DNA of 64,000 nucleotides from Lagopus muta (taxonomy: Eukaryota; Chordata; Aves; Galliformes; Phasianidae). Numbering within the stretch: position 1 is the first letter of the stretch; each line of letters begins with the position of its first letter. The stretch covers positions 36,721 to 100,720 of the forward strand of contig NW_026040159.1 in NCBI RefSeq assembly GCF_023343835.1. Reading direction: 5' to 3'. Of the stretch, positions 1-64,000 are shown piece by piece. The notes below the pieces were generated by a model that ran no database searches, was not told where the DNA came from, and saw only the letters and a program-made list of their open reading frames with translations. Both the position numbers and the translations under genes were made by a program.

Positions 1-360
1 CAGGCCTGATGGCGGCCGTGACGTTGGACGAGTCTGGGGGCGGCCTGCAGACGCCCGGAGGGGGGCTGAGCCTCGTCTGCAAGGCCTCTGGATTCACCTT
101 CAGCAGTTACCCCATGTTTTGGGTGCGACAGGCGCCCGGCGAGGGGCTGGAATTCGTCGCAGCTATTAGTGGTACTGGTAGTGGCACAGGCTATGGGGCA
201 GCGGTGCAGGACCGTGCCCCCATCTTGAGGGACAACGAGCAGAGCACAGCCAGCCTGCAGCTGAACACACAGGGCTGAGCACAGCGCCCCCTGCTGGTGC
301 GTTAAAGATGGTGCTGGTTGTGCTGGTGCTCGTGCTGGTCGCATCGATGTCGCTCCTGGG
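1..360 (+). pseudogene. IGHV: VH pseudogene 1 (5' edge of window)
   Basis: The window opens on the last bases of the leader-intron acceptor (CAG at 1-3), followed by the leader end GLMAA and a VH body in one frame. CDR1 region is SSYPMF and CDR2 is [14 protein letters not shown]3 reads [19 protein letters not shown], then decays: the frame hits TGA at 276-278 and the second conserved Cys is absent. A CTCF-type motif sits at 282-297. The D-like tail (about 301-357) is rich in Gly/Cys/Ala codons and ends IDVAPG in one frame. No RSS is visible. CDR2 is nearly identical to pseudogene 27, so the two are close paralogues. Confidence 0.9.
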
Positions 361-539
361 TTTTTTGTTTTCACCCAGAGCCCAGGTTGGGAGATCAGAG
401 ACCACTGGATGGAGCTGAGCTGAGAACAGACAGAACTCAGCTCGAATCTGCAGCAGGGAGCAAACAAGGATGGAACTGAGCACAGGGATGGGAGAAAATG
501 TGATGGAGAAGGTGGTGGAGATGGGGAGGGTGGTGAGGA
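361..539. other. VH 3' spacer
   Basis: Spacer after the D-like tail, containing the recurrent segment CTGCAGCAGGGAGCAAACA. The same spacer, with variations, flanks the hexamer satellite elsewhere (for example 1480-1612 and 22120-22289 on either strand). No gene or RSS is seen in it. Confidence 0.6.
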
Positions 540-772
540 TGGCCGTGGTCATGGTTATGCTTATGGTTATGGTCATATCCATGGTCATGGTTATGGTCAT
601 GGTCATCGTTATGGTCATGGTTATGGTTATGGTTATGGTCATGGTTATGGTCATGGTCATGGTTATGGTCATGGTCATGGTTATGGTCATGGTTATGGCC
701 ATGGTTATGGATATGGATATGGTCAGGGTTATGGTCATGGTTATGGATATGGATATGGTCGTGTTCACGATC
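540..772 (+). repeat. GGTTAT/GGTCAT hexamer satellite a
   Basis: Tandem hexamers GGTTAT and GGTCAT with GGATAT variants on the + strand. It is fused directly to the FR1 of VH pseudogene 2, so it replaces that gene's leader and start. Open frames across it (His-Asp, Met-Val or Gly-Tyr dipeptides) are only translations of the repeat. Confidence 0.9.
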
Positions 773-773
773 A

Positions 774-1100
774 TTGGAGGAGTCTGGGGGCGGCCTGCAG
801 ACACCCGAAGGGGGGCTGAGCCTCGTCTGCAAGGCCTCCGGATTCACCCTCAGCGATTATGCCATGCATTGGGTCCGACAGGCGCCCGGCAAGGGGCTGG
901 AATACGTTGCAGGTATTAGGAGTACTGGTGGTAGCACATACTATGGGTCGGCGGTGCAGGACCGTGCCCCCATCTCGAGGGACAACGATCAGAGCACGGT
1001 GAGCCTGCAGCTGAACACACAGGGCTGAGCACAGCGCCCCCTGGTGCCACGTGAAAAATGCTGGTAGTTGTGCTGGTTACTGTGGTTATGCTTATGGTGA
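774..1100 (+). pseudogene. IGHV: VH pseudogene 2, 5'-truncated
   Basis: VH body starting at [13 protein letters not shown] in FR1; the leader end and first FR1 residues are replaced by hexamer satellite. CDR1 is SDYAMH and CDR2 [12 protein letters not shown], with FR2 [16 protein letters not shown]3 ends in the decayed form with TGA at 1026-1028. The CTCF-type motif (1032-1049) is the short-linker variant CACGTGGCACCAGGGGGCGC on the complementary strand. A D-like tail with repeated GGTTAT-type codons runs to about 1100 and is followed by a degenerate heptamer CACAGGG. Confidence 0.88.
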
Positions 1101-1614: not shown

Positions 1615-2006
1615 ACCAGGGCCGTGGGCGATGCCACCAAATCCAGGAGTGACGCCGGTGTGATTATCGCTACCAGCCCAACTACAACTGTAAGCACTTT
1701 TCGCGCAGTAATAGGTGGCGGTGTCGTCGGTCGTCAGGCTGTTCAGCTGCAGGGTCACCGTGCTCTGATCGTTGTCCCTCGAGATGGTGGCACGGTCCTT
1801 CACCGCCGACCCGTAGTATGTGTAACTACCAGCACTGTAGCTGATACCTGCGACGTATTCCAGCCCCTCGCCGGGCGCCTGTCGGACCCACTGCATGGTA
1901 TAACTGCTGAGGGTGAATCTGGAGGCCTTGCAGACGAGGCTCAGCCCCCCTCCGGGCGTCTGCAGGCCGCCCCCAGACTCGTCCAACGTCACGGCCGCCA
2001 TCAGGC
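1615..2006 (-). pseudogene. IGHV: VH pseudogene 3, intact FR3 with fused D
   Basis: One of five units with an undamaged V body. The acceptor CACAG ends at 2007 and the exon begins [17 protein letters not shown]1 is SSYTMQ and CDR2 [15 protein letters not shown]3 is complete ([11 protein letters not shown], second Cys present), and the frame continues into a Cys-containing D-like CDR3 ([13 protein letters not shown]) and TPGFGG without a stop through the V region. There is no first leader exon, promoter, J segment or RSS, so it cannot be expressed alone; it is best read as a gene-conversion donor able to supply CDR1 to CDR3. The copy departs from most others at KASRFT instead of KASGFT. Confidence 0.9.
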
Positions 2007-2885: not shown

Positions 2886-3240
2886 GCCTGATGGCGGCCG
2901 TGACGTTGGACGAGTCTGGGGGCGGCCTGCAGACGCCCGGAGGGGGGCTGAGCCTCGTCTGCAAGGCCTCTGGATTCACCCTCAGCAGTTACACCATGTT
3001 TTGGGTGCGACAGGCGCCCGGCGAGGGGCTGGAATCCATCTCAGCTATTAACAGTGCTGGTAGTAGCACAGCATACGCGTCGGCGGTGCAGGGCCGTGCC
3101 ACCATCTCGAGGGACAACGATCAGAGCACGGTGAGCCTGCAGCTGAACACACAGGGCTGAGCACAGCGCCCCCTGCTGGTGCGCGAAATGTTATGGCAGT
3201 GCTGCTGGTTGTTGTGCTGCTTTTGAGATCGATGAGCGCA
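2886..3240 (+). pseudogene. IGHV: VH pseudogene 4
   Basis: Begins at the leader-intron acceptor (CACAG ending 2885), with about 55 bp of conserved intron end upstream (GGTCCTGGCTGCACCAGG onward). CDR1 is SSYTMF and CDR2 [14 protein letters not shown]2 is [16 protein letters not shown]3 ([19 protein letters not shown]) runs into TGA at 3158-3160. CTCF-type motif at 3164-3179; D-like tail to about 3235. CDR2 is shared with pseudogene 17. Confidence 0.9.
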
Positions 3241-3334: not shown

Positions 3335-3675
3335 TCCAACCAGCACAACCATAACAACAACCACTAGTAGCACCTTTCACACACCAGCAGGGGGCGCTGT
3401 GCTCAGCCCTGTGTTCAGCTGCAGGCTGGCTGTGCTCTGATCGTTGTCCCTCGAGATGGGGGCACGGCCCTGCACCGCTGCCCCATAGCTTGTGCTACTA
3501 CCAGTACTGTAAATACCTGCGAGCCACTCCAGCCCCTCGCTGGGCGCCTGTCGGACCCACATCATGCAATAACTGCTGAAGGTGAATCCGGAGGCCTTGC
3601 AGACGAGGCTCAGCCCCCCTCCGGGCGTCTGCAGGCCGCCCCCAGACTCGTCCAACGTCTCGGCCGCCATCAGCC
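3335..3675 (-). pseudogene. IGHV: VH pseudogene 5, frame variant of the decayed FR3
   Basis: Tail-to-tail with pseudogene 4. Leader end reads LMAAE instead of LMAAV. CDR1 contains an extra Cys (SSYCMM); CDR2 is [14 protein letters not shown]2 has [14 protein letters not shown]. The decayed FR3 is 2 bp shorter than in most copies, so the usual TGA is out of frame and translation runs to about 3377 ([13 protein letters not shown]). CTCF-type motif at 3384-3399; D-like tail 3335-3380. Confidence 0.9.
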
Positions 3676-4811: not shown

Positions 4812-5180
4812 GCCTGATGGCGGCCGTGACGTTGGACGAGTCTGGGGGCGGCCTGCAGACGCCTGGAGGGGGGCTGAGCCTCGTCTGCAAGGCCTCCGGA
4901 TTCACCTTCAGCAGTTATGACATGAATTGGGTCCGACAGGCGCCCAGCAAGGGGCTGGAATACGTTGCAGCTATTAGCAAAACTGGTAGTAGCACAGGCT
5001 ATGGGTCGGCGGTGCAGGGCCGTGCCCCCATCTCGAGGGACAACGATCAGAGCACAGTGAGCCTGCAGCTGAACACACAGGGCTGAGCACAGCGCCCCCT
5101 GGTGCCGCGCAAAGGAAGCTTATGGTTGTCCCGGTGCTTGTTGTGGTTACAATGCTGGTGCCATGGACGTCACAGTGCCC
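4812..5180 (+). pseudogene. IGHV: VH pseudogene 6
   Basis: Acceptor CACAG ends at 4811. CDR1 is SSYDMN and CDR2 [14 protein letters not shown]2 is [16 protein letters not shown]3 ends with TGA at 5084-5086. CTCF-type motif at 5090-5106 in the short form (CCCCCTGGTGCC). The D-like tail is followed by a perfect RSS heptamer CACAGTG at 5171-5177, but no nonamer stands 12 or 23 bp beyond it, so the signal is vestigial. The unit with its downstream satellite and pseudogene 7 is duplicated at 17001-18614. Confidence 0.9.
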
Positions 5181-6029: not shown

Positions 6030-6420
6030 TCTTGGTCTGGGCTCAAGGTGACACCACCAAACCCAGGAGCGGCGTCGATACCATAAGCATTAGAACCATC
6101 ACCAGCAACACCAACCACCCAGCAGAAGTAGGTTGCCGTGTCCTCAGCCTTCAGGCCGTTCAGCTGCAGGCTCACCGTGCTCTGATCGTTGTCCCTCGAG
6201 ATGGTGGCACGGCCCTGCACCGCCGACCCATAGCTTGTGCTACTACCAGTGCTGCCAATACTTGCGACCCATTCCAGCCCCTCGCCGGGCGCCTGTCGCA
6301 CCCAAAACATGGGGTAACTGCTGAGGGTGAATCCAGAGGCCTTGCAGACGAGGCTCAGCCCCCCTCCGGGCGTCTGCAGGCCGCCCCCAGACTCGTCCAA
6401 CGTCACGGCCGCCATCAGGC
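6030..6420 (-). pseudogene. IGHV: VH pseudogene 7, intact FR3 with fused D
   Basis: Full V body from the acceptor at 6421 through [16 protein letters not shown]1 SSYPMF, CDR2 [12 protein letters not shown] and complete FR3 [14 protein letters not shown]3 is the cassette [19 protein letters not shown] followed by GFGG, shared almost exactly with pseudogenes 18 and 23. The frame stays open beyond the D-like region into the spacer and satellite. No leader exon 1, promoter or RSS. Likely a donor covering all three CDRs. Confidence 0.9.
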
Positions 6421-7257: not shown

Positions 7258-7525
7258 AATGTAACCAGCACGGTGAACAGCATCACAATTAGCACCACTA
7301 CCACTAGCAGCAGCTTTCGCGCACCAGCAGGGGGCGCTGTGCTCAGCCCTGTGTGTTCAGCTGCAGGCTCACCGTGCTCTGATCGTTGTCCCTCGAGATG
7401 GTGGCACGGCCCTGCACCGCCGACCCGTATCTTGTGGTACCACCAGTGCTGCTGATACTTGCGACCCACTCCAGCTCCTTGCCGGGCGCCTGTCGGACCC
7501 ACAGCATCCCATAACTGCTGAGGGT
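7258..7525 (-). pseudogene. IGHV: VH pseudogene 8, truncated in FR1
   Basis: The V body is present only from FTLSSYGML onward: leader and most of FR1 are missing, and at about 7525 the sequence switches abruptly to 11-bp minisatellite. FR2 is [14 protein letters not shown] and CDR2 [14 protein letters not shown]3 is of the decayed type with the TGA; CTCF-type motif at 7324-7339. The D-like tail (7258-7323) is Ser/Gly-rich and abuts another minisatellite, so both ends are rearranged. Confidence 0.85.
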
Positions 7526-8277
7526 GAATCTATGGGTCTCTATGGGGTTTCAACGGCATGTCTATGGGTCTCATTGGGGTCTCTCCCTATGGCATCTCTA
7601 TGGTGCCCCTATGGGGTGTCTATGTGGTCTCTATGGGGTCTCAGCGGGGTCTCTGTGTAGTCTGTATGGGGTTGCAATGGGGTCCTTACGGGGTCTCTAT
7701 GGGTCTCTATGGGGTTTCAATGGCATTTCTATGGGTCTCAGTGGGGTCTCTCCCTATGGGGTCTCTATGGTGCCCCTATGGGGCATCTCTGGGGTCTCTA
7801 TGGGGTCTCAGTGGGGTGTCTGTGAGGTCTGTATGGGGTCACAATGGGGTCCCTACAGGGTCTCTATGGGTCTCTATGGGGTTTCAACGGCATCTCTATG
7901 GGTCTCAGTGGGGTCTCTCCCTATGGCGTCTCTATGGTGCCCCTATGGGGCATCTACGGGGTCTGTATGGGGTCTCAGCGGGGTCTCTGTGGGGTCTGTA
8001 TGGGGTCACAATGGGGTCCCTACGGGGACTCTATGAGCTCTCTATGGGGTCTCCATGGGGTCTCCATTGGGTCTCTATGGGGTCTGTATGGGGTCTGTAT
8101 GGGGTCTCTATTGGGTCTCTATGGGGTTTCAGTGGGGTCTCTTTGAGATGTCTATGGGGTCTCTATAGGGTCTCTATGGGGTGTCTATGGGGTATTTATG
8201 GGGTCTCTATGTGGTCCCAGTGGGGTCTCTATGAGGTCTCTACGGGGTCTCTTTAGGGTCTCTATGCGGTCTCAATG
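7526..8277. repeat. 11-bp minisatellite
   Basis: Single-polarity GGGGTCTCTAT array leading to the acceptor of pseudogene 9. It includes longer higher-order copies around CAACGGCATCTCTATGGG that recur three times (7555, 7718, 7888) and again near 13197. Confidence 0.9.
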
Positions 8278-8340: not shown

Positions 8341-8705
8341 GCCTGATGGCGGCCGTGACGTTGGACGAGTCTGGGGGCGGCCTGCAGACGCCCGGAGGGG
8401 GGCTGAGCCTCGTCTGCAAGGCCTCCGGATTCACCTTCAGCAGTTATGGCATGCAGTGGGTCCGACAGGCGCCCGGCGAGGGGCTGGAATCTGTGGCCTG
8501 TATTACCAGCACTGGTAGTACCACAAGCTATGGGGCAGCGGTGGAGGGTCGTGCCCCCATCTCGAGGGACAACGAACAGAGCACAGCCAGCCTGCAGCTG
8601 AACACACAGGGCTGAGCACAGCGCCCCCTGCTGGTGTGCAAAAGCTGCTGCTAGTGGTAGTTGTGCTTATTGTGATGCTGTTCACCGTGCTGGTTACATT
8701 GATGA
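8341..8705 (+). pseudogene. IGHV: VH pseudogene 9
   Basis: Acceptor CACAG ends at 8340. CDR1 SSYGMQ and CDR2 [12 protein letters not shown], with a Cys as the first CDR2 residue. FR2 is [16 protein letters not shown]3 [20 protein letters not shown] then TGA at 8613-8615. CTCF-type motif 8619-8634. The D-like tail ends at the same minisatellite junction (ACATTGATGACCCCATAGCG) as pseudogenes 8 and 19. Confidence 0.9.
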
Positions 8706-8770: not shown

Positions 8771-9165
8771 ACGTTGACGTTGGACGAGTCTGGGGGCGGC
8801 CTGCAGACGCCCGGAGGGGGGCTGAGCCTCGTCTGCAAGGCCTCCGGATTCACCTTCAGCAGTTACAACATGCAGTGGGTCCGACAGGCGCCCAGCAAGG
8901 AGCTGGAGTGGGTCGCAGGTATTGAGGATGATGGTAGTTACACATACTACGCGTCGGCGGTGGAGGGCCGTGCAACCATCTCGAGGGACAACGATCAGAG
9001 CACGGTGACCCTGCAGCTGGACGACCTGACGACCGACGACACCGCCACCTATTACTGCGCGAGAGGTTATGGCGGTGGCTGCGACGCTGCTGCTCAAGAT
9101 ATCGACGCCGACCTTGATTTGGTGCCCACTGAGGCATGGCGGTGTCCAGGCGCGGTGCTGTGATG
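8771..9165 (+). pseudogene. IGHV: VH pseudogene 10, intact FR3 with fused D, no leader
   Basis: Starts at TLDESGGG; the leader end and acceptor are replaced by minisatellite. CDR1 SSYNMQ, CDR2 [14 protein letters not shown]2 [16 protein letters not shown]3 is complete ([16 protein letters not shown]) and continues into a D-like CDR3 with one Cys ([16 protein letters not shown]), then runs to TGA at 9161-9163. This is the only + strand unit with an intact FR3 end. Confidence 0.9.
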
Positions 9166-9442: not shown

Positions 9443-9812
9443 GCCTGATGGCGGCCGTGACGTTGGACGAGTCTGGGGGCGGCCTGCAGACGCCCGGAGG
9501 GGGGCTGAGCCTCGTCTGCAAGGCCTCTGGATTCACCTTCAGCAGTTACAACATGATGTGGGTGCGACAGGCGCCCGGCGAGGGGCCGGAATGGGTCGCA
9601 TGTATTAGCAGCACTGGTAGTGGCACAAGCTATGGGGCAGCGGTGCAGGGCCGTGCCCCCATCTCGAGGGACAACGATCAGAGCACGGTGAGCCTGCAGC
9701 TGAACACACAGGGCTGAGCACAGCGCCCCCTGCTGGTGCGCGAAACGTGCTACTAGTGGTTGTGGTGCTGCTTGTAGTGCTTGTGGTCACCACGCTGGTG
9801 AGATCGACGACC
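9443..9812 (+). pseudogene. IGHV: VH pseudogene 11
   Basis: Acceptor CACAG ends at 9442. CDR1 SSYNMM, CDR2 [14 protein letters not shown]2 [14 protein letters not shown] carries Pro instead of Leu. TGA at 9715-9717; CTCF-type motif 9721-9736. The D-like tail has repeated GGTTGTGGTGCT-type Cys/Gly/Ala codons and ends at a minisatellite junction near 9812. Confidence 0.9.
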
Positions 9813-11205: not shown

Positions 11206-11550
11206 GCCTGATGGCAGCCGAGACGTTGGACGAGTCTGGGGGCGGCCTGCAGACGCCCGGAGGGGGGCTGAGCCTCGTCTGCAAGGCCTCCGGATTCACC
11301 TTCAGCAGTTACCCCATGTTTTGGGTGCGACAGGCGCCCGGCGAGGGGCTGGAATACGTCGCAAGTATTGGCAGCACTGGTAGTACCACAGGCTATGGGG
11401 CAGTGGTGCAGGGCCGTGCCCCCATCTCGAGGGACAACGATCAGAGCACAGTGAGCCTGCAGCTGAACACACAGGGCTGAGCACAGCGCCCCCTGCTGGT
11501 GCGCGAGATGTTATGGCAGTGCTGCTGGTTGTTGCGCTGCTTTTGAGATC
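11206..11550 (+). pseudogene. IGHV: VH pseudogene 12
   Basis: Acceptor ends at 11205; leader end LMAAE. CDR1 SSYPMF, CDR2 [12 protein letters not shown], then [10 protein letters not shown] (Val for Ala). TGA at 11478-11480; CTCF-type motif 11484-11499. Tail-to-tail with pseudogene 13 through about 100 bp of spacer (ATCGATGAGCGCAGATCAGG) that also separates pseudogenes 4 and 5. Confidence 0.9.
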
Positions 11551-11649: not shown

Positions 11650-11995
11650 GTCGATACACCCAGCACAACCATAACAACCACCACTAGTAGCACCTTTTGA
11701 GCACCAGCAGGGGGCGCTGTGCTCAGCCCTGTGTTCAGCTGCAGGCTGGCTGTGCTCTGATCGTTGTCCCTCAAGATGGGGGCACGGTCCTCCACTGCTG
11801 CCCCATAGCCTGTGTCACTACCATAGCTGCTAATACATGCGACCCATTCCAGACCCTTGCCAGGTGCCTGTAGCATCCAATCCATCCCATAATCGCTGAA
11901 GGTGAATCCGGAGGCCTTGCAGCCGAGGCTCAGCCCCCCTCTGGGCGTCTGCAGGCCGCCCCCAGACTCGTCCAACGTCACGGCCGCCATCAGGC
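11650..11995 (-). pseudogene. IGHV: VH pseudogene 13, divergent FR2
   Basis: Acceptor ends at 11996. FR1 has QTPRGG and LGCKAS where others have QTPGGG and LVCKAS. FR2 is [14 protein letters not shown], losing the usual Val-Arg. CDR1 SDYGMD; CDR2 [12 protein letters not shown], which matches pseudogene 20. As in pseudogene 5, the decayed FR3 lacks 2 bp, so the frame passes the usual TGA ([13 protein letters not shown]). CTCF-type motif 11704-11719. Confidence 0.9.
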
Positions 11996-13748: not shown

Positions 13749-14120
13749 GCCTGATGGCGGCCGTGACGTTGGACGAGTCTGGGGGCGGCCTGCAGACGCC
13801 CGGAGGGGGGCTGAGCCTCATCTGCAAGGCCTCCGGATTCACCCTCAGCAGTTACCCCATGTTTTGGGTGCGACAGGCGCCTGGCGAGGGGCCGGAATTC
13901 GTCGCAGGTATTAGCAGCACTGGTAGTGGCACAAGCTATGGGGCAGCAGTGCAGGGCCGTGCCCCCATCTCGAGGGACAACGATCAGAGCACGGTGAGCC
14001 TGCAGCTGAACACACAGGGCTGAGCACAGCGCCCCCTGCTGGTGCGCGAAACGTGCTACTAGTGGTAGTGGTGCTGCTTGTAGTGGTTGTGGTCACCGCG
14101 CTGGTGAGATCGACGACCCC
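13749..14120 (+). pseudogene. IGHV: VH pseudogene 14
   Basis: Acceptor ends at 13748. FR1 has [11 protein letters not shown]1 SSYPMF, CDR2 [14 protein letters not shown]2 [17 protein letters not shown] 14021-14023; CTCF-type motif 14027-14042. The D-like tail joins minisatellite at about 14118 with the same phrase as pseudogene 11. Confidence 0.9.
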
Positions 14121-14804: not shown

Positions 14805-15165
14805 GCCTGATGGCGGGCAAGATGTTGGATGAGTCTGGGGGCGGCCTGCAGATGCCTGGAGGGGGGCTGAGCCTCGTCTGCAAGGCCTCCGGATTCACCT
14901 TCAGCAGTTATGGGATGGAATGGGTCCGACAGGCGCCCAGCAAGGGGCTGGAATGGGTCGCATGTATTAACGCTGCTGGTAGCACAGGCTATGGGGCAGC
15001 GGTGCAGGGCCGTGCCCCCATCTCGAGGGACAACGATCAGAGCACAGTGAGCCTGCAGCTGAACACACAGGGCTGAGCACAGCGCCCCCTGCTGGTGCAC
15101 GAAAACCACTTGTGGTGGTTCTGGTTCTTATGGTTATGCTGGTGGTGACCCGGCCGTCACAGGGC
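14805..15165 (+). pseudogene. IGHV: VH pseudogene 15, divergent leader
   Basis: Leader-intron end differs from the standard one (GAGAGGCCATTTGACAGCGG) and the acceptor is CTACAG ending 14804. The leader/FR1 junction is [19 protein letters not shown], with two unusual Met residues. CDR1 SSYGME; CDR2 is one residue short ([11 protein letters not shown]). TGA 15074-15076; CTCF-type motif 15080-15095. The D-like tail carries GGTGGTTCTGGTTCTTATGG. Confidence 0.9.
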
Positions 15166-15671: not shown

Positions 15672-16021
15672 GCGACGTTGTTGCGACCAGCACGAGCACC
15701 AGCACAACCAGCACCAGCTTTTGCACGGCACCAGGGGGCGCTGTGCTCAGCCCTGTGTGTTCAGCTGCAGGCTGGCTGTGCTCTGATCGTTGTCCCTCGA
15801 GATGGGGGCACGGCCCTGCACCGCTGCCCCATAGCTTGTACCACTACCAGTGCTGCTAATACTTGCAACGTATTCCAGCCCCTTGCCGGGCGCCTGTCGC
15901 ACCCAAAACATGGGGTAACTGCTGATGGTGAATCCAGAGGCCTTGCAGACGAGGCTCAGCCCCCCTCCGGGCGTCTGCAGGCCGCCCCCAGACTCGTCCA
16001 ATGTCATGGCTGCCATCAGGC
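15672..16021 (-). pseudogene. IGHV: VH pseudogene 16
   Basis: Acceptor ends at 16022; leader end LMAAM. CDR1 SSYPMF (FR1 GFTIS), CDR2 [14 protein letters not shown]2 [14 protein letters not shown]. In-frame stop at 15747-15749. The CTCF-type motif is the short form ACCAGGGGGCGCTG near 15730-15743. Tail of GCACCAGCACAACC type on the + strand. Confidence 0.9.
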
Positions 16022-17000: not shown

Positions 17001-17365
17001 GCCTGATGGCGGCCGTGACGTTGGATGAGTCTGGGGGCGGCCTGCAGACACCCGGAGGGGGGCTGAGCCTCGTCTGCAAGGCCTCTGGATTCACCATCAG
17101 CAGTTACACCATGCAGTGGGTCCGACAGGCGCCCGGCGAGGGGCTGGAATCCATCTCAGCTATTAACAGTGCTGGTAGTAGCACAGCATACGCGTCGGCG
17201 GTGCAGGGCCGTGCCCCCATCTCGAGGGACAACGATCAGAGCACGGTGAGCCTGCAGCTGAACACACAGGGCTGAGCACAGCGCCCCCTGCTGGTGCGCA
17301 AAGGAAGCTTATGGTTGTCCCAGTGCTTGTTGTGGTTACAATGCTGGTGCCATGGACGTCACAGT
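17001..17365 (+). pseudogene. IGHV: VH pseudogene 17
   Basis: Acceptor ends at 17000. CDR1 SSYTMQ (FR1 GFTIS), CDR2 [14 protein letters not shown]2 [17 protein letters not shown] 17273-17275; CTCF-type motif 17279-17294. A heptamer CACAGTG at 17360-17366 follows the D-like tail, as in pseudogene 6, again without a nonamer. Confidence 0.9.
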
Positions 17366-18234: not shown

Positions 18235-18614
18235 GCTCAAGGTGACACCACCAAACCCAGGAGCGGCGTCGATACCATAAGCATTAGAACCATCACCAGC
18301 AACACCAACCACCCAGCAGAAGTAGGTTGCCGTGTCCTCAGGCTTCAGGCCGTTCAGCTGCAGGCTCACCGTGCTCTGATCGTTGTCCAGCGAGATGGTG
18401 GCACGGCCCTGCACCGCCGACCCATAGCTTGTGCTACTACCAGTGCTGCCAATACTTGCGACCCATTCCAGCCCCTCGCCGGGCGCCTGTCGGACCCAGC
18501 TCATGGTATAACTGCTGAAGGTGAATCCGGAGGCCTTGCAGACGAGGCTCAGCCCCCCTCCGGGCGTCTGCAGGCCGCCCCCAGACTCGTCCAACGTCAC
18601 GGCTGCCATCAGGC
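18235..18614 (-). pseudogene. IGHV: VH pseudogene 18, intact FR3 with fused D
   Basis: Duplicate of pseudogene 7 in layout. CDR1 SSYTMS, CDR2 [14 protein letters not shown]3 ISLDNDQ (Leu for Arg, shared with pseudogene 23) and complete [14 protein letters not shown]3 cassette [19 protein letters not shown], then GFGG. CDR1 differs from pseudogene 7 while CDR2 and CDR3 are identical, a patchwork expected from conversion between donors. Confidence 0.9.
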
Positions 18615-19771: not shown

Positions 19772-20131
19772 AATGTAACCAGCACGGTGAACAGCATCAC
19801 AATTAGCACCACTACCACTAGCAGCAGCTTTCGCGCTCCAGCAGGGGGCGCTGTGCTCAGCCCTGTGCGTTCAGCTGCAGGCTCACCGTGCTCTGATCGT
19901 TGTCCCTCGAGATGGGGGCACGGCCCTGCACCGCTGCCCCATAGCTTGTACCACTACCAGTTCTGCTAATATAGGCGACGAATTCCAGCCCCTCGCCGGG
20001 CGCCTGTCGGACCCACTGCATCCAATAACTGCTGATGGTGAATCCGGAGGCCTTGCAGACGAGGCTCAGCCCCCCTCCGGGCGTCTGCAGGCCGCCCCCA
20101 GACTCGTCCAACGTCACGGCCGCCATCAGGC
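19772..20131 (-). pseudogene. IGHV: VH pseudogene 19
   Basis: Acceptor ends at 20132. CDR1 SSYWMQ (FR1 GFTIS), CDR2 [14 protein letters not shown]2 [16 protein letters not shown]3 ends LQLNAQG and stop at 19857-19859. CTCF-type motif 19838-19853. The D-like tail is Ser/Gly/Cys-rich and matches pseudogene 8. Confidence 0.9.
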
Positions 20132-20213
20132 CTGTGGGGAAGGACAGACGGCGCTGACGGAGCCGCCGACACACGGCCTGGTGCAGCCAGGACCCATTGA
20201 GACCACATAGAGA

Positions 20214-20490
20214 CCCTCACCCTCAGCTATTATGGGATGGATTGGGTCCAACAGGCGCCCGGCAAGGGGCTGGAATGGGTCGCCTGTATTAGCAGCTATG
20301 GTAGTGACACAGGCTATGGGGCAGCGGTGCAGGGCCGTGCCACCATCTTGAGGGACAACGAGCAGAGCACAGCCAGCCTGCAGCTGAACACACAGGGCTG
20401 AGCACAGCGCCCCCTGCTGGAGCGCGAAAGCTGCTACTAGTGGTGGTTGTTATGGTTGTGCTGGGTGTATCGACGTCGCTCCTGCATTTA
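20214..20490 (+). pseudogene. IGHV: VH pseudogene 20, truncated before CDR1
   Basis: Starts inside late FR1 at LTLSYYGMD, joined directly to about 20 bp of minisatellite that belongs to the leader intron of pseudogene 19. FR2 is [14 protein letters not shown] (Gln for Arg); CDR2 [15 protein letters not shown] 20399-20401; CTCF-type motif 20405-20420. Same breakpoint as pseudogene 24. Confidence 0.87.
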
Positions 20491-20636: not shown

Positions 20637-20965
20637 GAGTCTGGGGGCGGCCTGCAGACGCCCGGAGGGGGGCTGAGCCTCGTCTGCAAGGCCTCCGGAT
20701 TCACCATCAGCAGTTATTACATGATGTGGGTCCGACAGGCACCCAGCATGGGGCTGGAGTGGCTCGCAGTTATTAGTAGTGGTGCTGGTACCACATACTA
20801 CGGGTCAGCGGTGCAGGGCCGTGCCACCATCTCGAGGGACAACGATCAGAGCACGGTGAGCCTGCAGCTGAACACACAGGGCTGAGCACAGCGCCCCCTG
20901 GTGCCACGTGAAAAATGCTGGTAGTTGTGCTGGTTACTGTGCTTATGCTTATGGTGACACGGCCG
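20637..20965 (+). pseudogene. IGHV: VH pseudogene 21, 5'-truncated
   Basis: Begins [16 protein letters not shown]1 SSYYMM (FR1 GFTIS), FR2 [14 protein letters not shown] with an unusual Met, CDR2 [14 protein letters not shown]3 [22 protein letters not shown] 20883-20885. CTCF-type motif about 20889-20904 in the short form. D-like tail and spacer match pseudogene 2. Confidence 0.88.
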
Positions 20966-22520: not shown

Positions 22521-22535
22521 TCGTGTTCACGATCA

Positions 22536-22865
22536 TTGGAGGAGTCTGGGGGCGGCCTGCAGACACCCGAGGGGGGGCTGAGCCTCGTCTGCAAGGCCTC
22601 TGGATTCACCCTCAGCAGTTATGCCATGCTGTGGGTCCGACAGGCGCCCGGCGAGGGGCTGGAGTGGGTCGCAGGTATTGAGGATGATGGTAGTAACCCA
22701 GTCTATGGGGCAGCAGTGGAGGGCCGTGCCACCATCTCGAGGGACAACGATCAGAGCACGGTGAGCCTGCAGCTGAACACACAGGGCTGAGCACAGCGCC
22801 CCCAGCTGGTGCGTGAAAGGTGCTACTAGTGGTAGTTGTGGTGCTTATTATGCTGGTGGTGACAT
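22536..22865 (+). pseudogene. IGHV: VH pseudogene 22, 5'-truncated
   Basis: Starts [13 protein letters not shown], like pseudogene 2. CDR1 SSYAML, CDR2 [14 protein letters not shown]2 [17 protein letters not shown] 22788-22790. The CTCF-type motif (22794-22809) has a variant CAGCGCCCCCAGCTGG. Facing pseudogene 23 across satellite j. Confidence 0.88.
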
Positions 22866-23234: not shown

Positions 23235-23618
23235 CTGGGCTCAAGGTGACACCACCAAACCCAGGAGCGGCGTCGATACCATAAGCATCAGAACCATCAC
23301 CAGCAACTCCAACCACCCAGCAGAAGTAGGTTGCCGTGTCCTCAGCATTCAGGCCGTTCAGCTGCAGGCTGGCTGTGCTCTGATCGTTGTCCAGTGAGAT
23401 GGTGGCACGGCCCTGCACCGCCGACCCGTAGTTTGTGCTACTACCAGTGCTGCCAATACTTGCGACCCATTCCAGCCCCTCGCCGGGCGCCTGTCGCACC
23501 CAGCTCATGGCATAACTGCTGAAGGTGAATCCAGAGGCCTTGCAGACGAGGCTCAGCCCCCCTCCGGGCGTCTGCAGGCCGCCCCCAGACTCGTCCAACG
23601 TCACGGCCGCCATCAGGC
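23235..23618 (-). pseudogene. IGHV: VH pseudogene 23, intact FR3 with fused D
   Basis: Acceptor ends at 23619. CDR1 SSYAMS, CDR2 [14 protein letters not shown]3 [11 protein letters not shown] and complete [14 protein letters not shown]3 [19 protein letters not shown], then GFGG, one residue different from pseudogenes 7 and 18. The frame is open from the leader end through the D-like region and spacer. Confidence 0.9.
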
Positions 23619-26712: not shown

Positions 26713-26771
26713 CTGTGGGGAAGGACAGACGGCGCTGATGGAGCCGCTGACACACGGCCTGGTGCAGCCAG

Positions 26772-28050: not shown

Positions 28051-28116
28051 AGGACCGCATTGCAGCCCCCTTTCATTCTCATAAGCAGAAGGCATTTTTT
28101 GCCGCTCCCCTCCCTT

Positions 28117-30364: not shown

Positions 30365-30414
<50 letters not shown>

Positions 30415-36296: not shown

Positions 36297-36357
<61 letters not shown>

Positions 36358-38920: not shown

Positions 38921-41900
38921 GTTCCCCCGGCGCCTCCCCAGCCCCCCGCCGTCCTCCCAAGGACCCTTCCTCCTCCTCTTCCTCTTCCTCTTCCTCTTCC
39001 TCTTCCTCTTCCTCTTCCTCTTCCTCTTCCTCCTCTTCCTCTTCCTCTTCCTCCTCTTCCTCTTCCTCTTCCTCTTCCTCTTCCTCCTCCTCCTCCTCTT
39101 CCTCCTCTTCCTCTTCCTCTTCCTCTTCCTCTTCCTCCTCTTCCTCTTCCTCTTCCTCTTCCTCTTCCTCTTCCTCTTCCTCTTCCTCTTCCTCTTCCTC
39201 TTCCTCTTCCTCTTCCTCTTCCTCTTCCTCTTCCTCTTCTTCCTCCTCTTCCTCTTCCTCTTCCTCCTCCCCGTGGACCCCTCCAGCCATGCCATCAGAA
39301 CCAGAACCCCCCCATCCCGCCGTCGCCCCCCACCACCCCAAAACCCCCCCAATTCTGGCGCTTGCCCCCTTGACATCCCCCTGTTGCTGGAGGAGCTCCG
39401 GGTGTTACAACAACGTCAGCTCCGCCAAATGCAGCTGACCGAAGACATCTGTCGCCAGGTCCCTCCTCTTGGGGGCCCTGAGCACCCCAAAATCCCGCTC
39501 CCCCCCCTTCCCCCACCTCCCCCCCCCTCGCAAAAAGCCGCATTTCATCGCTGGGAAACCTTTTTTCCCTCTTTTCCCCCCTAAAAACCAACCTCATGCC
39601 ACCGCCGCCGCGGCCGCTTTCTTCTTGGCGGCCCCCTACCGCGGTGGGGGGTTGGGGTGATGCCGGTGGTCTCGGCCCACCCCCCAAATTTGCCCACCCC
39701 CCAAATTTGGCAGCGGGGGACGCGGTGGGGACGCGACACGAGTGCGGCTTTTGCGGGAAGGGATTCGGGAGCGAAAGCGCCCGCCAGATCCACCTCAGGT
39801 CCCACACGGGCGAACGGCCCTACGGCTGTAACGTCTGCGGCAACCGCTTCACCACGCGCGGCAACCTGAAGGTTCACTACCACCGGCACAGGCAGAAGGT
39901 TCACCGCATGGCCGGGAGCCCCCAGGCCACCAACGGGGGTCAGTTGGCCTCCAGCAACACCCAGTTGGCCTCCAGCAACAACCAGTTGGCCTCCAGCTAC
40001 AAACAGTTGGCCTCCAACAGCACCCAGTTGGCCTCCAGCAACACCCACTTGGCCTCCAGCAACACCCAGTTGGCCTCCAGCTACAACCAGTTGGGCCTCC
40101 AACAGCACCCAGTTGGCCTCCAGCAACACCCAGTTGGCCTCCAACAGCACCCAGTTGGCCTCCAGCAACACCCAGTTGGCCTCCAACAACAACCAGTTGG
40201 CCTCCAGCAACACCCAGTTGGCCTCCAACAGCACCCAGTTGGCCTCCAGCAACACCCAGTTGGCCTCCAGCTACAACCAGATGGCATCCAACAGCGTGCA
40301 GGCCACTTGTCAACACTCAACTGGCCTCCAGCAACACCCAGTTGGCCTCCAGCAACACCCAGTTGGCCTCCAGCAACAACCAGTTGGCCTCCAACAACAC
40401 CCAGTTGGCCTCCAGCAACACCCAGTTGGCCTCCAACAACAACCAGTTGGCCTCCAACAACAACCAGTTGGCCTCCGACAGCGTGCAGCCACTTGTCAAC
40501 ACCCAGTTGGCCTCCAGCAATACCCAGTTGGCCTCCAACAACACCCAGTTGGCCTCCAGCAACACCCAGTTGGCCTCCAGCAACACCCAGTTGGCCTCCA
40601 ACAGTGTGCAGCCACTTGTCAACGCTCAACTGGCCTCCAGCAACACCCAGTTGGCCTCCAGCAACACCCAGTTGGCCTCCAACAGCGTGCGGCCACTTGT
40701 CGACAACCAGTTGGCCTCCAACAGCACCCAGTTGGCCTCCAACAGCACCCAGTTGGCCTCCAGCAACACCCAGTTGGCCTCCAGCAACACCCAGTTGGCC
40801 TCCAACAGCACCCAGTTGGCCTCCAGCAACACCCAGTTGGCCACCAACAGCAACCAGTTGGCCTCCAACAGCGTGCAGCCACTTGTCATCACTCAATTGG
40901 CCTCCAGCAACAACCAGTTGGCCTCCAACAGCACCCAGTTGGCCTCCAGCTACAACCAGTTGGCCTACAGCAACACCCAGTTGGCCTCCAGCTACAACCA
41001 GTTGGCATCTGACAGCTTGCAGCCACTTGTCAATACTCAGCTGGCGTCCAGCAACACCCAGATGGCCTCCAAGAACACCCAGTTGGCCTCCAACAGCATG
41101 CAACCGCTTGTCATCACTCAACTGGCCTCCAACAGCACCCAGTTGGCCTCCAACAGCACCCAGTTGGCCTCCAGCAACAACCAGTTGGCCTCCAACAACA
41201 CCCACTCGGCCTCCAGCAACACCCAGTTGGCCTCCAACAGCACCCAGTTGTCCTCCAGCAACACCCAGTTGGCCTCCAGCAACACCCAGTTGGCCTCCAA
41301 CAGCACCCCAGTTGGCCTCCAGCAACACCCAGTTGGCCTCCAACAGCGTGCAGCCACTTGTCAACACCCAGTTGGCCTCCAGCAACACCCAGTTGGCCTC
41401 CAACAGCACCCAGTTGGCCTCCAGCAACACCCAGTTGGCCTCCAACAGCACCCAGTTGGCCTCCAACGGCACCCAGTTGGCCTCCGACAGCGTGCAGCCA
41501 CTTGTCAACATTCAACTGGCCTCCAACAACACCCAGTTGGCCTCCAACAGTGTGCAGCCACTTGTCAACACTCAGCTGGCCTCCAGCAACAACCAGTTGG
41601 CCTCCAACAGCACCCAGTTGGCCTCCAACAACACCCAGTTGGCCTCCAGCAACACCCAGTTGGCCTCCAGCAACACCCAGTTGGCCTCCAGCAACACCCA
41701 GTTGGCCTCCAACAGCACCCAGTTGGCCTCCAAGAACACTCAGTTGGCCTCCAGCAACAACCAGTTGGCCTCCAGCAACACCCAGTTGGCCTCCAACAAC
41801 ACCCAGTTGGCCTCCAACAGCGTGCAGCCACTTGTCAACACCCAGTTGGCCTCCAGCAACACCCAGTTGGCCTCCAACAGCACCCAGTTGGCCTCCAGCA

Positions 41901-44900: not shown

Positions 44901-47159
44901 CCAAGTTCCAACAACACCCAGCTGATCTCCAACACCCAATTGAAGGCCAGTGACACCCAACCAACTTCTAACAACACCCAACTGATCTCCAACACCCAAC
45001 TGAAGGCCACCAACACCCAACTGATGGCCACCAACACCCAACCAACTTCTAACAACACCAAACTGATCTCCAACACCCAACTGATGGCCAACAACACCCA
45101 ACTGATCTCCAACTCCCAACTGATGGCCACCAACACCCAACTGATGGCCAACAACACCCAACCAAGTTCCAACAACACCCAACTGATCTCCAACACCCAA
45201 CTGATGGCCAACAACACCCAACTGATGGCCAACAACACCCAACCAAGTTCCAACAACACCCAACTGATCTCCAACACCCAACTGATGGCCAACAACACCC
45301 AACCAACTTCTAGCAACACCCAACTGATCTCCAACACCCAACTGATGGCCACCAACACCCAGCTGATGGCCAACAGCACCCAACCAACTTCTAACAACAC
45401 CCAACTGATCTCCAACACCCAACTGATGGCCAACAACACCCAACCAATTTCCAGCAACTCCCAACCGATCTCCAACACCCAACTGATGGCCACCAACACC
45501 CAGCTGATGGCCAACAACACCCAACTGGTGGCCACCAACACCCAACTGACTTCTAACAACACCCAACCGAAGGCCAACACCCAACTGATGGCCAACGACA
45601 CCCAACCAAGTTCCAGCAACACCCAACTGATCTCCAACACCCAACTGAAGGCCACCAACACCCAGCTGATGGCCAACAGCACCCAACTGATGGCCAACAA
45701 CACCCAACTGAAGGCCAATGACACCCAACCAACTTCCAGCAACACCCAACTGATCTCCAACACCCAACTGGTGGCCACCAACACCCAACTGATGGCCACC
45801 GACACCCAACCCAATTCTAACAACACCCAACTGATCTTCAATACCCAACTGAAGGCCAACAACACCCAACTGATGGCCAACAATGCCCAACCAAGTTCCA
45901 ACAACATCCAACCAACTTCTAACAACACCCAACTGATCTCCAACACCCAACTGAAGGCCAACAACACCCAACCAGGTTCTAACAGCACCCAACCGATCTC
46001 CAGCACCCAACTGATGGCCACCAACACCCAACTGACTTCTAACAACACCCAACTGATCTCCAACACCCAACTGAAGGCCAACAACACCCAACTGATGGCC
46101 AACAGCACCCAACCAAGTTCCACCAACACCCAACTGATCTCCAACACCCAACTGAAGGCCAACGACACCCAACTGAAGGCCAACGACACCCAACTGATGG
46201 CCAACAACACCCAACCAAGTTACAACACCACCCAACTGATCTCCAACACCCAACTGATGGCAACCAACACCCAACTGATGGCCACCAACACCCAACCAAC
46301 TTCTAACAACACCCAACTGATCTCCAACACCCAACTGCTGGCCAATGACACCCAACCGACTTCTAACAACACCCAACTGATCTCCAACACCCAACTGAAG
46401 GCCAACAACACCCAACTGATGGCCACCAACACCCAACCAACTTCCAGCAACACCCAACTGATGGCCACCAACACCCAACTGATGGCCAACGACACCCAAC
46501 CCACTTCCAGCACCCCCCAACTGCTGCCTGCCCCCATCCAACCCCTCCCCACCACCACCCTCCTCCTGCTGAAGACATCCGACCTCCAACCGAGGCCGGG
46601 TGACGAAAACCCCCTTCCATCCCAACCCCCCAAACCCAGGACCACCGGTTGGGCTCTGTTGGGCACCCCCCCAAATCTGTGGGTCCCTTCCATTTCAGAA
46701 AGCTCCCAAGAGCCCCAGGTGGTGACAAAATCCCCCCCAACCACGACAACGACAGGCGGAGGAACCCGAATCCAATGCCCTGTGTGCCGTCGGGTGTTGA
46801 GCTGCCAACGGGGGTCCAGGTCTCATTTTGGGGGTCACGTCCCCCTTCCGGTGTCGGGTTTGTGGGAGGGGGTTCACAAGTCGGGGTCACCTGAGAGCTC
46901 ATTTTGGGGGTCACCGAGGGGTCGACCCGAATGCCTGTAGTTTTGGGGATGGTTTGGGGTCGCAACAACAACAACGGGGTTATTTGGGGAGGGGGGGGCT
47001 GTTGCTGCTGCCCCAAGAGGAGGGGGAACAACGGAACCAGGAGGAAGAGGAGGAGGATGGAGAGGAAGAGGCGGAGCCCCGAGTGATGGGGGGGGGACCC
47101 CCGAAGGAGGAAGAGGAGGAAGAGGGGAGGAAGGCGGAGAGGAGGGGACGAGAGGGGAG
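38921..47159 (+). CDS. SALL2: SALL2 exon 2, with giant heptad-repeat linker and frameshifts
   Basis: Core of a spalt-type C2H2 transcription factor. In order: [16 protein letters not shown] then a Ser tract (38968-39270); Q-rich dimerisation region [28 protein letters not shown] (39374-39457); [13 protein letters not shown], matching the family motif KPLLPLFSPIKP; zinc-finger pair 1 (39742-39896: HECGFC...[14 protein letters not shown]...[16 protein letters not shown]); about 2,190 residues of heptads; zinc-finger pair 2 (46772-46910: [12 protein letters not shown]...[20 protein letters not shown]); Gln run and Glu-rich acidic region to 47159. The second pair is closer to SALL2 than to SALL1/3/4. 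Pieces lie in different frames, with shifts in homopolymers near 39340, 39530, 39600-39730, 40090, 40306, 41308, 42712, 42745, 42908, 43012 and 46830. Read literally from finger pair 1 the frame stops at 43217-43219. The third central finger, the N-terminal C2HC finger and the C-terminal pair were not found. Annotated as a gene because the domains are conserved; decay is the alternative. Confidence 0.8.
38968..39275 (+). repeat. TCTTCC hexamer tract coding poly-Ser
   Basis: About 300 bp of TCC/TCT codons in the frame set by exon 1. All-pyrimidine strand, so capable of triplex (H-DNA) structure and prone to length change. Vertebrate SALL proteins do carry Ser runs, but much shorter. Poly-Glu, Lys-Arg, Leu-Phe and Leu-Pro frames here are shadows. 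Confidence 0.85.
39941..46510 (+). repeat. SALL2: 21-bp coding minisatellite inside SALL2
   Basis: Roughly 310 units of 21 bp. Part A (39941-43115): CAGTTGGCCTCCAGCAACACC, coding QLASSNT or QLASNST, interrupted regularly by a SVQPLVNT segment. Part B (43120-46510): CAACTGATGGCCAACAACACC, coding a higher-order 20-residue unit QLMANNT + QPTSNNT + QLISNT. Part A has almost no stop in any of six frames; part B has TGA in the other forward frames. It replaces the linker between the two zinc-finger pairs, about 200-300 residues in mammals. Confidence 0.9.
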
Positions 47160-54259: not shown

Positions 54260-54353
54260 ATGTCGGATACTTGGAGCTCCATCCAGGCCCATAAGAAGCA
54301 ATTGGATTCGCTGCGGGAGCGGCTGCAGCGGAGGAGGAAGCAGGACCCGCTCG
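54260..54353 (+). CDS. METTL3: METTL3 exon 1
   Basis: Encodes the first 31 residues of the m6A methyltransferase catalytic subunit: MSDTWSSIQAHKKQLD, then SLRERLQRRRKQDPL. This is essentially identical to the mammalian N terminus, whose leader helix binds WTAP in the nuclear m6A writer complex. The start is fixed by that identity. Donor CTCG|GTGAGG at 54353/54354, phase 1. No sign of decay. Confidence 0.95.
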
Positions 54354-54399
54354 GTGAGGGGGATTTTGGGGTGAAATCGAGGGGATTTGGGGCCGGGGG

Positions 54400-59610: not shown

Positions 59611-59789
59611 CTCCATCCCCACTTGTGGGGGGGGTCGGGGGGGGTCTCTACCAACCCCACTACGGATGGAGGGGGGGTCCCGAATTGGCCCCCGACCCGG
59701 CTTTGGAGCGTCGGTTGCTTCTTCACCTCGCCGACGTCGCCCTCGCTTTACCCACCGACGCCGGGGCGATTCGGGGGGCCATCGATACG
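59611..59789 (+). CDS. METTL3: METTL3 exon 2
   Basis: Encodes GPELAPDPALERRLLLHLAD then VALALPTDAGAIRGAIDT, aligned with the mammalian PELATDPELEKKLLHHLSD region; donor ATACG|GTGAGC at 59789/59790, phase 0. The 5' end is uncertain. The better acceptor (CATCCCACCCCCAG, exon from 59526) would start DPRHTDPSQPP but lies in another frame and needs a one-base shift in the G runs at 59626-59645. The acceptor used here (GTTGGAAG, 59609-59610) keeps phase with exon 1 and needs no shift. The 5' half is poorly conserved among vertebrates, so it cannot decide. Confidence 0.8.
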
Positions 59790-61320: not shown

Positions 61321-61324
61321 AAAT

Positions 61325-63670
61325 TTCTCCAAGAAAGGCCAAAATTGACCCAAATCTCTCCAGGAACGACCCAGATTGACCCAAGTTGACCCAAATCTCC
61401 CCAACAAAGACCAAAATTCATCGAAATTGACCCAAATCTCCCCAAGAAAGGCCCAAATTGACCCAAATCTCTCCAGGAAGGGCCCAAATTGACCCAAGTT
61501 GACCCAAATCTCTCCAAGAAAGACCAAAGTTGACCCAAATCTCTTCAAGAAAGACCAAAATTCATCGAAATTGACCCAAATCTCTCCAAGAAAGACCAAA
61601 ATTCATCGAAATTGACCCAAATCTCCCCAAGAAAGACCCAAATTGCCCCAAATCTCTAAAAGAAAGGCCCAGATTGACCCAAATCTCCCCAAGAAAGACC
61701 AAAATTGACCCAAATTTCTCCAAGAAAGACCAAAATTGACCCAAATGGACCCAAATCTCTACAAGAAAGGCCCAGATTGACCCATGTTGACCCAGATCTC
61801 CCCAAGAAAGACCAAAATTGACCCAAATCTCTCCAAGAAAGACCAAAATTGACCCAAATTTCTCCAAGAAAGACCCAAATTGACCCAAATCTCCCCAAGC
61901 AAGACGAAAATTGACCCAAATCTCTCCAAGAAAGGCCCAAATTGTCCCAAGTTTGCCCAAATTGACCCAAGATGACCCAAATCTCCCCAAGAAAGGCCAA
62001 AATTGACCCAAATCTCTCCAAGAAAGACCAAAATTGACCCAAATCTCTCCAAGAAGGGCCAAAATTCACCCAAATCGACCCAAGTTGACCCAGGTATCCC
62101 CAAGAACGGCCCAAATTGACCCAGATCTTCCCAAGAAAGACCAAAATTGACCCAAATCTCTACAAGAAAGGCCCAAATTGACCCAAATCTCTACAAGAAA
62201 GGCCAAAATTGACCCAAATCTCTCCAAGAAAGACCAAAATTGACCAAAATTGACCCAGATCTCCCCAAGAAAGGCCCAAATTGACCCAAATCTCTCCAAG
62301 AAAGACCAAAATTCATCGAAATTGACCCAAATTGACCCAAGAAAGACCAAAATTGACCCAAATCTCTCCAAGAAAGGCCCAGATTGACCCAAGTTGACCC
62401 AAATTGCCCCTAGTTGACCCAGATCTCTCCAAGAAAGACAAAAATTGACCCAAATCTCTCCAGGAAGGGCCCAAATTGACCCAAATTGACCCAAATTGAC
62501 CCAAGAAAGGCCGAAATTGACCCAAGTTGACCCAAATCTCTCCAAGAAAGACCAAAATTGACCAAAATTGACCCAGATCTCCCCAAGAAAGGCCCAAATT
62601 GACCCAAATCTCTCCAAGAAAGACCAAAATTCATCGAAATTGACCCAAATCTCCCAAGAAAGACCAAAATTGACCCAAATCTCTCCAAGAAAGACAAAAA
62701 TTGACCCAAATCTCTCCAGGAAGGGCCCAAATTGACCCAAGTTGACCCAAATTGACCCAAGAAAGGCCGAAATTGACCCAAGTTGACCCAAATCTCTTCA
62801 AGAAAGACCAAAATTGACCCAAATCTCCCCAAGAAAGACCAAAGTTGACCCAAATTTCTCCAAGAAAGACCCAAATGGACCCAAATCTCTCCAGGAAGGG
62901 CCCAAATTGACCCAAGTTGACACAGATCTCCCCAAGAAAGACCAAAATTGACCCAAATCTCTCCAAGAAAGGCCCAAATTGACCCAAGTTTGCCCAAATT
63001 GACCCAAGATGACCCAAATCTCTCCAAGAAAGGCCAAAATTGACCCAAATCTCTCCAAGAAAGACCAAAATTGACCCAAATCTCTCCAGGAAGTGCCCAA
63101 ATTGACCCAAGATGACCCAAATTGACCCAAGAAAGACCAAAATTGACCCAAGTTGACCCAAATCTCTCCAACAAAGACCAAAATTGAACCAAATCTGTCC
63201 AAGAAAGGCCAAAATTCATCCAAATGGACCCAAATCTCTCCAAGAAAGACCAAAATTGACCCAAGTTTGCCCAAATTGACTCAAGATGACCCCAAATCTC
63301 CCCAAGAAAGGCCGAAATTGACCCAAGTTTACCCAGATCTCCCCAAGAAAGACCCAAATTGACCCAAATCTCTCCAGGAAGGGCCCAAATTCATCCAAGT
63401 TGACCCAAATCTCCCCAAGAAAGACCAAAATTGACCCAAATCTCTCCAAGAAAGGCCAAAATTGACCCAAATCCCTCCAAGAAAGGCCAAAATTGACCCA
63501 AATCTCTCCAAGAAAGGCCAAAATTGACCCAAGTTTGCCCAAATTGATCCAAGATGACCCAAATCTCCCCAAGAAAGGCCGAAATTGACCCAAGTTGACC
63601 CAAATCTCTCCAAGAAAGACCAAAATTGACCAAAATTGCCCCAAATCTCCCCAAGAAAGACCCCAAATGA
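61325..63670 (-). repeat. 31-bp minisatellite in METTL3 intron 2
   Basis: About 75 copies of a 31-bp unit, GACCCAAATCTCTCCAAGAA followed by AGACCAAAATT. Minus-strand frames rich in Trp-Val-Asn-Phe-Gly are repeat translations. Confidence 0.9.
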
Positions 63671-63689
63671 CCCCCGAAATTTTCCCCAG

Positions 63690-64000
63690 CCCGAGACGCC
63701 GGCGACGCAGCGCATGGTGGAAAGCCTCCTCCAGAAGTTCGCCGCTCAGGAGCTGATCGAGGTTCGCCGGGGTCTCCTGGCCGAAGGTCCCACCATCGTC
63801 ACCTACGCCGACCACTCCAAGCTGGCGGCCATGACAGGCGCCGAACGCGGCGGGGACGGCGACGCCGACGTCGCCGGGAGGAAACGCAGAGCGGAGCAGG
63901 ATAATTCCGGCGGCGTCGGTTCAACCGGAGCGGAAACTGGGAAAGAAATGGTGAAAAAATCTCGTAAGCAGGCGTCCGACGTGGATCTGGAGATTGAGAG
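63690..64000 (+). CDS. METTL3: METTL3 exon 3 (cut by window end)
   Basis: Follows exon 2 in phase 0: PETPATQRMVESLLQKFAAQ, then ELIEVRRGLLAEGPTIVTYA, DHSKLAAMTGA, a Gly/Asp-rich stretch, RKRRAEQDNS, and KKSRKQASDVDLEIES. These match the mammalian protein, including the nuclear localisation segment KKSRK. A mammalian Ala/Ser-rich stretch between RAEQD and KKSRK is shorter here. The exon is open to the last base; the CCCH zinc fingers and the catalytic DPPW domain lie beyond the window. Function: catalytic subunit of the METTL3-METTL14 complex that methylates adenosine N6 in nuclear pre-mRNA. Confidence 0.95.

Follow-up and report, generated by a model that had tools for sequence, protein, structure and literature searches.

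The stretch of DNA analysed here (the window) comprises 64,000 nucleotides of the Lagopus muta genome (NCBI RefSeq assembly GCF_023343835.1, contig NW_026040159.1, positions 36,721 to 100,720) and carries a cluster of variable (V) gene units of the immunoglobulin heavy-chain type (VH), followed by the genes SALL2 and METTL3. With a probability of roughly 0.7, we conclude that this cluster is the V end of the bird's immunoglobulin heavy-chain (IGH) locus and that it directly adjoins SALL2-METTL3. The window makes up bases 36721-100720, the final 64 kb, of a contig (C45) of 100,720 bases that contains no N and is thus gap-free; its end coincides with the right edge of the window, where METTL3 is truncated. 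To the left, a further 36.7 kb of C45 extend beyond the window. Along the whole contig the order reads: joining (J) segment, diversity (D) segment, a VH with leader and recombination signal sequence (RSS), 35 VH units without RSS, SALL2 and METTL3. The assembly searched, the single bird genome examined, holds 1,026,658,476 bases in 165 contigs.

V, D and J segments of IGH type

Using a chicken VH1-like protein as the tblastn query, we found 36 VH-like units on C45, 27 of them within the window at 15-26701 (16 on the plus and 11 on the minus strand; Table 1). All 27 units announced by the sequence-only reading were thus located, and so were SALL2 and METTL3 behind them, both on the plus strand as it had stated. 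The weakest VH match had E=1.3e-18 on the contig and E=5.5e-22 within the window, and mononucleotide-shuffled and reversed copies of C45 yielded no VH match at E<=0.01. In the alignments, in-frame stops interrupt three of the 36 units, one of these inside the window. The Pfam V-set profile gave eight matches on C45 above cut-off among the best 150 of 515 candidates. When one VH unit of the window was compared with the entire genome, 45 matches emerged from 49 candidates, 36 on C45 (58-100% identity) and the other nine all on contig C28 (4.95-4.99 Mb, plus strand; 36-43% identity). No second VH cluster was listed elsewhere apart from these nine weak matches.

The RSS-bearing VH lies in the left part of the contig (C45:16357-16644, minus strand). 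Its heptamer and nonamer show two mismatches with a 24-base spacer and four mismatches with a spacer of 23. A leader exon reading MSPSVTSLLLLAALP, then GGTGAG, was located 1003 bases upstream (C45:17603-17647, minus strand), and nowhere else does C45 match this leader in at least 9 of the 15 residues. The other 35 VH units showed no RSS at up to four mismatches (spacers 22-24) within 160 bases past the aligned part. Nine of the 36 matches extend to the end of framework region 3 (FR3), namely the RSS-bearing VH and eight others, five of which are in the window; as judged by eye, D-like sequence continues after FR3 in the eight RSS-less units.

A D segment of 30 bases, the only one found, is present at C45:10704-10733 (minus strand) with a 12-spacer RSS on each side, carrying two and one mismatches, respectively. 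Sixty first-order random regions yielded no D-type 12-12 RSS pair at up to four mismatches per RSS. The J segment at C45:7833 (minus strand) reads AAGSIDAWGTGTEVVVSS, then GGTGAGT, a splice donor, and is preceded by a 23-spacer RSS with three mismatches; its nonamer has two mismatches at the 23 spacer and seven at the 12 spacer. Between V and J, a search tolerating up to six mismatches per RSS revealed no D segment of the T-cell receptor delta (TRD) type, with a 12-23 or 23-12 RSS pair. IGH loci follow the rule V(23)-(12)D(12)-(23)J. The left part of C45 has this layout of signals, and the locus is therefore IGH. The VH-D-J direction on C45 points away from SALL2.

The sequence-only reading had called for a leftward extension to find a functional VH, D, J and constant exons. 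A VH that looks functional was indeed recovered, along with a D and a J, while constant exons turned up only on unlinked small contigs. Matches to the C1-set profile in the genome include contigs C105 (49,478 bases) and C149 (28,925 bases). The C105 exon (35-37 kb, minus strand) is of the heavy-chain constant domain 4 (CH4) type with IgM as its best PDB match (E=1.1e-51). One CH exon on C149 best matched an IgA heavy chain (E=2.4e-35), and for another on the same contig IgA1 topped many heavy chains in PDB (E=2.2e-27). A Vertebrate Genomes Project (VGP) preprint describes bird IGH as lying on short contigs, probably owing to its location on dot chromosomes with HiFi dropout (PMC13320880). The separate small contigs for the IgM and IgA exons fit this statement.

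Going by what is established for chicken IGH (PMC3308330, PMC13060830), the single RSS-bearing VH would join D and J, with the RSS-less units acting as donors for AID-driven gene conversion. By this analogy, the anatomy of C45 is compatible with chicken-type V(D)J recombination plus gene conversion. We saw no sign of a role for SALL2 or METTL3 in antibody-gene diversification.

SALL2, METTL3 and the spacer

The N-terminal motif at 39369-39461 is presumably that of the SALL family (Table 1). The gene is taken as SALL2, and not as a different member of the family, in view of the adjoining METTL3. When finger pair 1 was compared with PDB, multi-finger chains such as ZNF568 scored highest, and SALL4 and SALL3 chains were present among the best 60 matches. 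In the genome, the same finger pair matched C45 itself, then contig C25 (84%) and three loci at 71-75% (best 150 of 1090 candidates); the latter three are taken as the other SALL genes. The first two exons are presumed to be those of METTL3. Exon 3 matched the m6A methyltransferase catalytic subunit (METTL3) in PDB with E=1.9e-26, and its sole genome match was on C45. The MT-A70 profile search returned three matches, two on contig C7 and a third on C3; C45 and C28 had none.

A 6.5-kb minisatellite with units of about 21 bases separates the two SALL2 finger pairs (39941-46500) and is open in long open reading frames (ORFs) of 1245 and 1512 aa, each in its own frame. The change of frame within finger pair 2 (46770-46914) is either a real frameshift or a sequencing error. 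At C25:6237501-6246500, we observed a decayed SALL2-like fragment (84% over the finger pair) with the same minisatellite and retroelement-like ORFs beside it. C25 had no match to METTL3 exon 3, and this candidate for a second SALL2, at C25:6.242 Mb, is therefore taken as a secondary copy. SUPT16H, which lies beyond METTL3 in human, was represented by SPT16-family matches on contig C43, and no neighbour was recognisable in the 10 kb beside them.

Between the last VH unit and SALL2 lies a spacer of mostly tandem and simple repeats, whose ORFs, scanned by eye, revealed no additional gene over 26702-39368. An AT-rich simple repeat of about 5 kb (28448-33490), T-rich in its left half and A-rich in its right half, stands out from the otherwise GC-richer contig, with a GC content of 11-21% over 28-34 kb. 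Beyond it come tandem repeats with units of 313, 41 and 21 bases, the first of these being present in 5.6 copies with 93% matches (33893-35665). Around SALL2 and METTL3, at 36621-38739 and 47188-53645, there are long minisatellites of 21/41-base units and G-rich ones with units of 10-62 bases; they are of a type that may impede sequencing of dot chromosomes.

Table 1. Features located in the 64-kb window (window coordinates)
Feature	Position	Strand	Remark
VH-type unit	15..266	+	no RSS
VH-type unit	771..1019	+	no RSS
VH-type unit, D-like 3' extension	1699..1995	-	no RSS
VH-type unit	2897..3148	+	no RSS
VH-type unit	3410..3664	-	no RSS
VH-type unit	4823..5077	+	no RSS
VH-type unit, D-like 3' extension	6122..6409	-	no RSS
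VH-type unit, partial match	7355..7528	-	no RSS
VH-type unit	8352..8606	+	no RSS
VH-type unit, D-like 3' extension	8774..9064	+	no RSS
VH-type unit	9454..9705	+	no RSS
VH-type unit	11217..11471	+	no RSS
VH-type unit	11730..11984	-	no RSS
VH-type unit	13760..14014	+	no RSS
VH-type unit	14825..15064	+	no RSS
VH-type unit	15759..16010	-	no RSS
VH-type unit	17012..17266	+	no RSS
VH-type unit, D-like 3' extension	18316..18603	-	no RSS
VH-type unit	19869..20120	-	no RSS
VH-type unit, in-frame stop	20177..20389	+	no RSS
VH-type unit	20637..20876	+	no RSS
VH-type unit	22533..22778	+	no RSS
VH-type unit, D-like 3' extension	23320..23607	-	no RSS
VH-type unit, partial match	23725..23898	+	no RSS
VH-type unit, partial match	24162..24365	-	no RSS
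VH-type unit	25527..25781	+	no RSS
VH-type unit closest to SALL2	26447..26701	-	no RSS
Spacer between VH cluster and SALL2, 12.7 kb	26702..39368	.	mostly tandem and simple repeats
SALL2 N-terminal motif	39369..39461	+	presumed SALL family motif
SALL2 zinc-finger pair 1	39734..39901	+	
SALL2 zinc-finger pair 2	about 46770..46914	+	frame changes between fingers
METTL3 exon 1, coding part from ATG	54260..54355	+	presumed
METTL3 exon 2, recognised part	about 59679..59789	+	presumed; then splice donor
METTL3 exon 3, cut at contig end	about 63690..63998	+	PDB match; preceded by acceptor

The TRA/D locus in the same genome

The T-cell receptor alpha/delta (TRA/D) locus of this bird resides on C28, a contig of 5,130,816 bases. 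TRAC, at 5.052 Mb (plus strand), scored above the cut-off of Pfam PF09291 and matched a TCR alpha chain in PDB (E=3.3e-52). DAD1 was identified on the minus strand at 5.062-5.064 Mb, with 67 kb left to the end of C28. On the plus strand at 4.95-4.99 Mb stand the nine VH-like V genes, which are probably TRDV. METTL3 exon 3 had no match on C28 in the genome search, and the SALL2 fingers matched there only a generic 33-bit finger at 1.887 Mb (best 150 of 1090 candidates). Within C28:5063001-5073000, the next gene past DAD1 encodes a VIT domain.

Comparison with known receptor loci

Chicken IGH contains one functional VH, 58 pseudogenes and about fifteen D segments (PMC3308330), and mallard IGH one functional VH and 57 pseudogenes (PMC13060830). 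The locus on C45 resembles both in its VH family, its single V with leader and RSS, its RSS-less V units, its 12-12 D and its one J with a 23 spacer. It differs in having 35 RSS-less units, a lower bound if the locus is incomplete on C45, and in its SALL2-METTL3 neighbour, which goes unmentioned in the available parts of the chicken and duck accounts. With the galliform TCR-delta2 locus, a single VH-delta/D/J/C cassette on chicken chromosome 10 (PMC10972964), it shares an antibody-like V; here, however, there is a large V cluster with RSSs of the IGH type.

In Xenopus tropicalis, SLC7A7-OXA1L borders one side of IGH and ABHD4-DAD1 the opposite side, and TRA/D is set apart from IGH by ABHD4 and DAD1 alone (PMC9911811). 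Axolotl IGHV lies near ABHD4, according to a figure legend (PMC12967993). METTL3, SALL2, DAD1 and ABHD4 flank TRA/D of frog, human, mouse and opossum (PMC12529555). A newt possesses a METTL3-SALL2-DAD1-ABHD4 block without TCR genes, which directly adjoins IGH in one haplotype (PMC12698447). A 2008 study reported METTL3/SALL2 at the 5' end of the opossum, human and mouse TRA/D loci and, less closely, of the cow locus. In chicken they were not at that end of TRA/D, DAD1 being at the 3' end there too (PMC2275272).

As in X. tropicalis, then, IGH and the flanking genes of TRA/D share one neighbourhood in this bird. The bird differs in that IGHV directly adjoins SALL2, with TRA/D and DAD1 located on a separate contig. 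The newt Pleurodeles likewise has the SALL2/METTL3/DAD1/ABHD4 block on its IGH chromosome and its TCR genes moved away; the newt block is intact with DAD1 and ABHD4, while only SALL2-METTL3 remained here and DAD1 accompanies TRAC. The likeness to the mammalian TRA/D locus, as described for opossum, consists in METTL3 and SALL2 bordering an antigen-receptor locus on its V side. Indeed, SALL2 and METTL3 are adjacent on C45, on the same strand and at the V side, as in a TRA/D flank, and the receptor locus beside them is IGH.

Weighing the evidence

Support for the VH-SALL2 linkage comes from a single gap-free contig and from its match to the order that amphibians and mammals lead one to expect. 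Several points weigh against it, or against IGH as we describe it. The constant exons on C105 and C149 have no physical link to C45, and one D was found here, as opposed to about fifteen in chicken, with constant genes on other contigs. Most of the 12.7-kb spacer is of low complexity, a place where misjoins can happen. Absence of SALL2 near TRA/D on C28 is a statement about the best 150 of 1090 candidates, the 5' flank itself not having been read. ABHD4 would be expected to adjoin DAD1 or to lie in the IGHV-SALL2 interval. It was found at neither site: it was not seen in the 10 kb beyond DAD1, and the Abhydrolase_1 profile gave nine matches (best 19 of 46 candidates), none of them on C28 or C45. 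The OXA1L family had no match in the genome by an exon-by-exon search, which is a weak test. Two accounts place SALL2/METTL3 as the TRA/D flank in birds as well (PMC12698447, PMC12529555), and the chicken statement of 2008 drew on Ensembl releases of its time, which may lack genes of dot chromosomes (PMC2275272). The claim of such a TRA/D flank in birds is backed neither by that chicken statement nor by the present genome.

An assembly misjoin, in which an IGH fragment became joined to a foreign SALL2-METTL3 fragment inside the repeat-rich spacer, would draw support from the AT-rich and tandem repeats at the junction and from the statement of the VGP preprint that bird IGH is on short contigs, probably owing to dot chromosomes with HiFi dropout. 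We nevertheless consider it unlikely. C45 is without any N, and a random join would hardly hit exactly the two genes that border opossum TRA/D on its V side. Both genes also point outward, as would be expected next to a V cluster and as they do in human. Moreover, one newt haplotype has the METTL3-SALL2-DAD1-ABHD4 block directly beside IGH (PMC12698447). Somewhat less likely still is a linkage that is real but secondary, IGH or SALL2-METTL3 having been translocated independently in birds rather than retained together. These loci did move in axolotl and newt (PMC9911811, PMC12698447), and ABHD4, which a retention model requires, was found on neither side; yet order and orientation on C45 equal the inferred ancestral order less one contiguous block, for which one excision suffices.

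The sequence-only reading had also offered an alternative, in which the units belong to a TCR delta locus as VH-delta-type segments; such a locus would have kept its SALL2-METTL3 flank. VH-delta genes are indeed known from several tetrapods (PMC12529555), and SALL2-METTL3 does mark the TRA/D 5' end in the mammals of the 2008 study, opossum, human and mouse and less closely cow. We rejected this alternative as highly improbable in view of the RSS layout and of the location of TRAC and DAD1. The D with 12-12 signals and the J with a 23 spacer are of the IGH type, and no 12-23 or 23-12 D appeared at up to six mismatches per RSS. TRAC and DAD1 sit on C28, as do the other VH-like matches; TRDC was not searched for separately. 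In addition, TCR-delta2 is a single cassette in galliforms (PMC10972964) and has a 12/23 D and a 12 J in duck (PMC5278385). The identification of the C45 cluster as the V end of IGH beside SALL2-METTL3 thus remains our preferred interpretation.

History of the linkage

The other proposal of the sequence-only reading, an ancient linkage between IGH and the SALL2 block retained in this bird, gains support from the presence of IGH-type V, D and J together with SALL2/METTL3 on one contig. A composite pieced together from Xenopus, axolotl and mammals suggests that the ancestral tetrapod order would be OXA1L-IGHC-IGHV-ABHD4-DAD1-TRAC...TRAV-SALL2-METTL3. In the bird lineage, the block with TRA/D and DAD1 would have left for another chromosome, and IGHV would thereby have become the direct neighbour of SALL2. 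Without the DAD1-TRA/D block, the composite order reads IGHC-J-D-V-SALL2-METTL3, and C45 equals it from J onward. With moderate confidence, we regard the IGHV-SALL2 junction as the scar of one excision of the DAD1-TRA/D block, in the bird lineage, from a super-locus (IGH-ABHD4-DAD1-TRA/D-SALL2-METTL3), which left IGH fused to the V-side flank, probably on a dot chromosome. This history of a single excision is the simplest reading and no proof, because ABHD4 and OXA1L could not be placed. Among the titles and abstract openings listed by our literature searches, none described a link of IGHV with SALL2 in birds; that SALL2/METTL3 are lacking at chicken TRA/D was already reported in 2008.

Conclusions

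Xenopus has IGH and TRA/D linked; in other tetrapods the two came to separate locations through breaks for whose positions we found no description. The position of IGHV beside the former TRA/D flank would mark one such break, placed here to within 12.7 kb. Adjacency of IGHV and SALL2 offers a simple explanation for the old chicken report that SALL2/METTL3 do not flank TRA/D. If true, the single-excision reading explains the fate of the 5' TRA/D flank missing from chicken and predicts an identical IGHV-SALL2 junction in other birds. The IGHV-SALL2 adjacency also opens the history of the linkage to a direct test in complete assemblies of birds, crocodiles and turtles.

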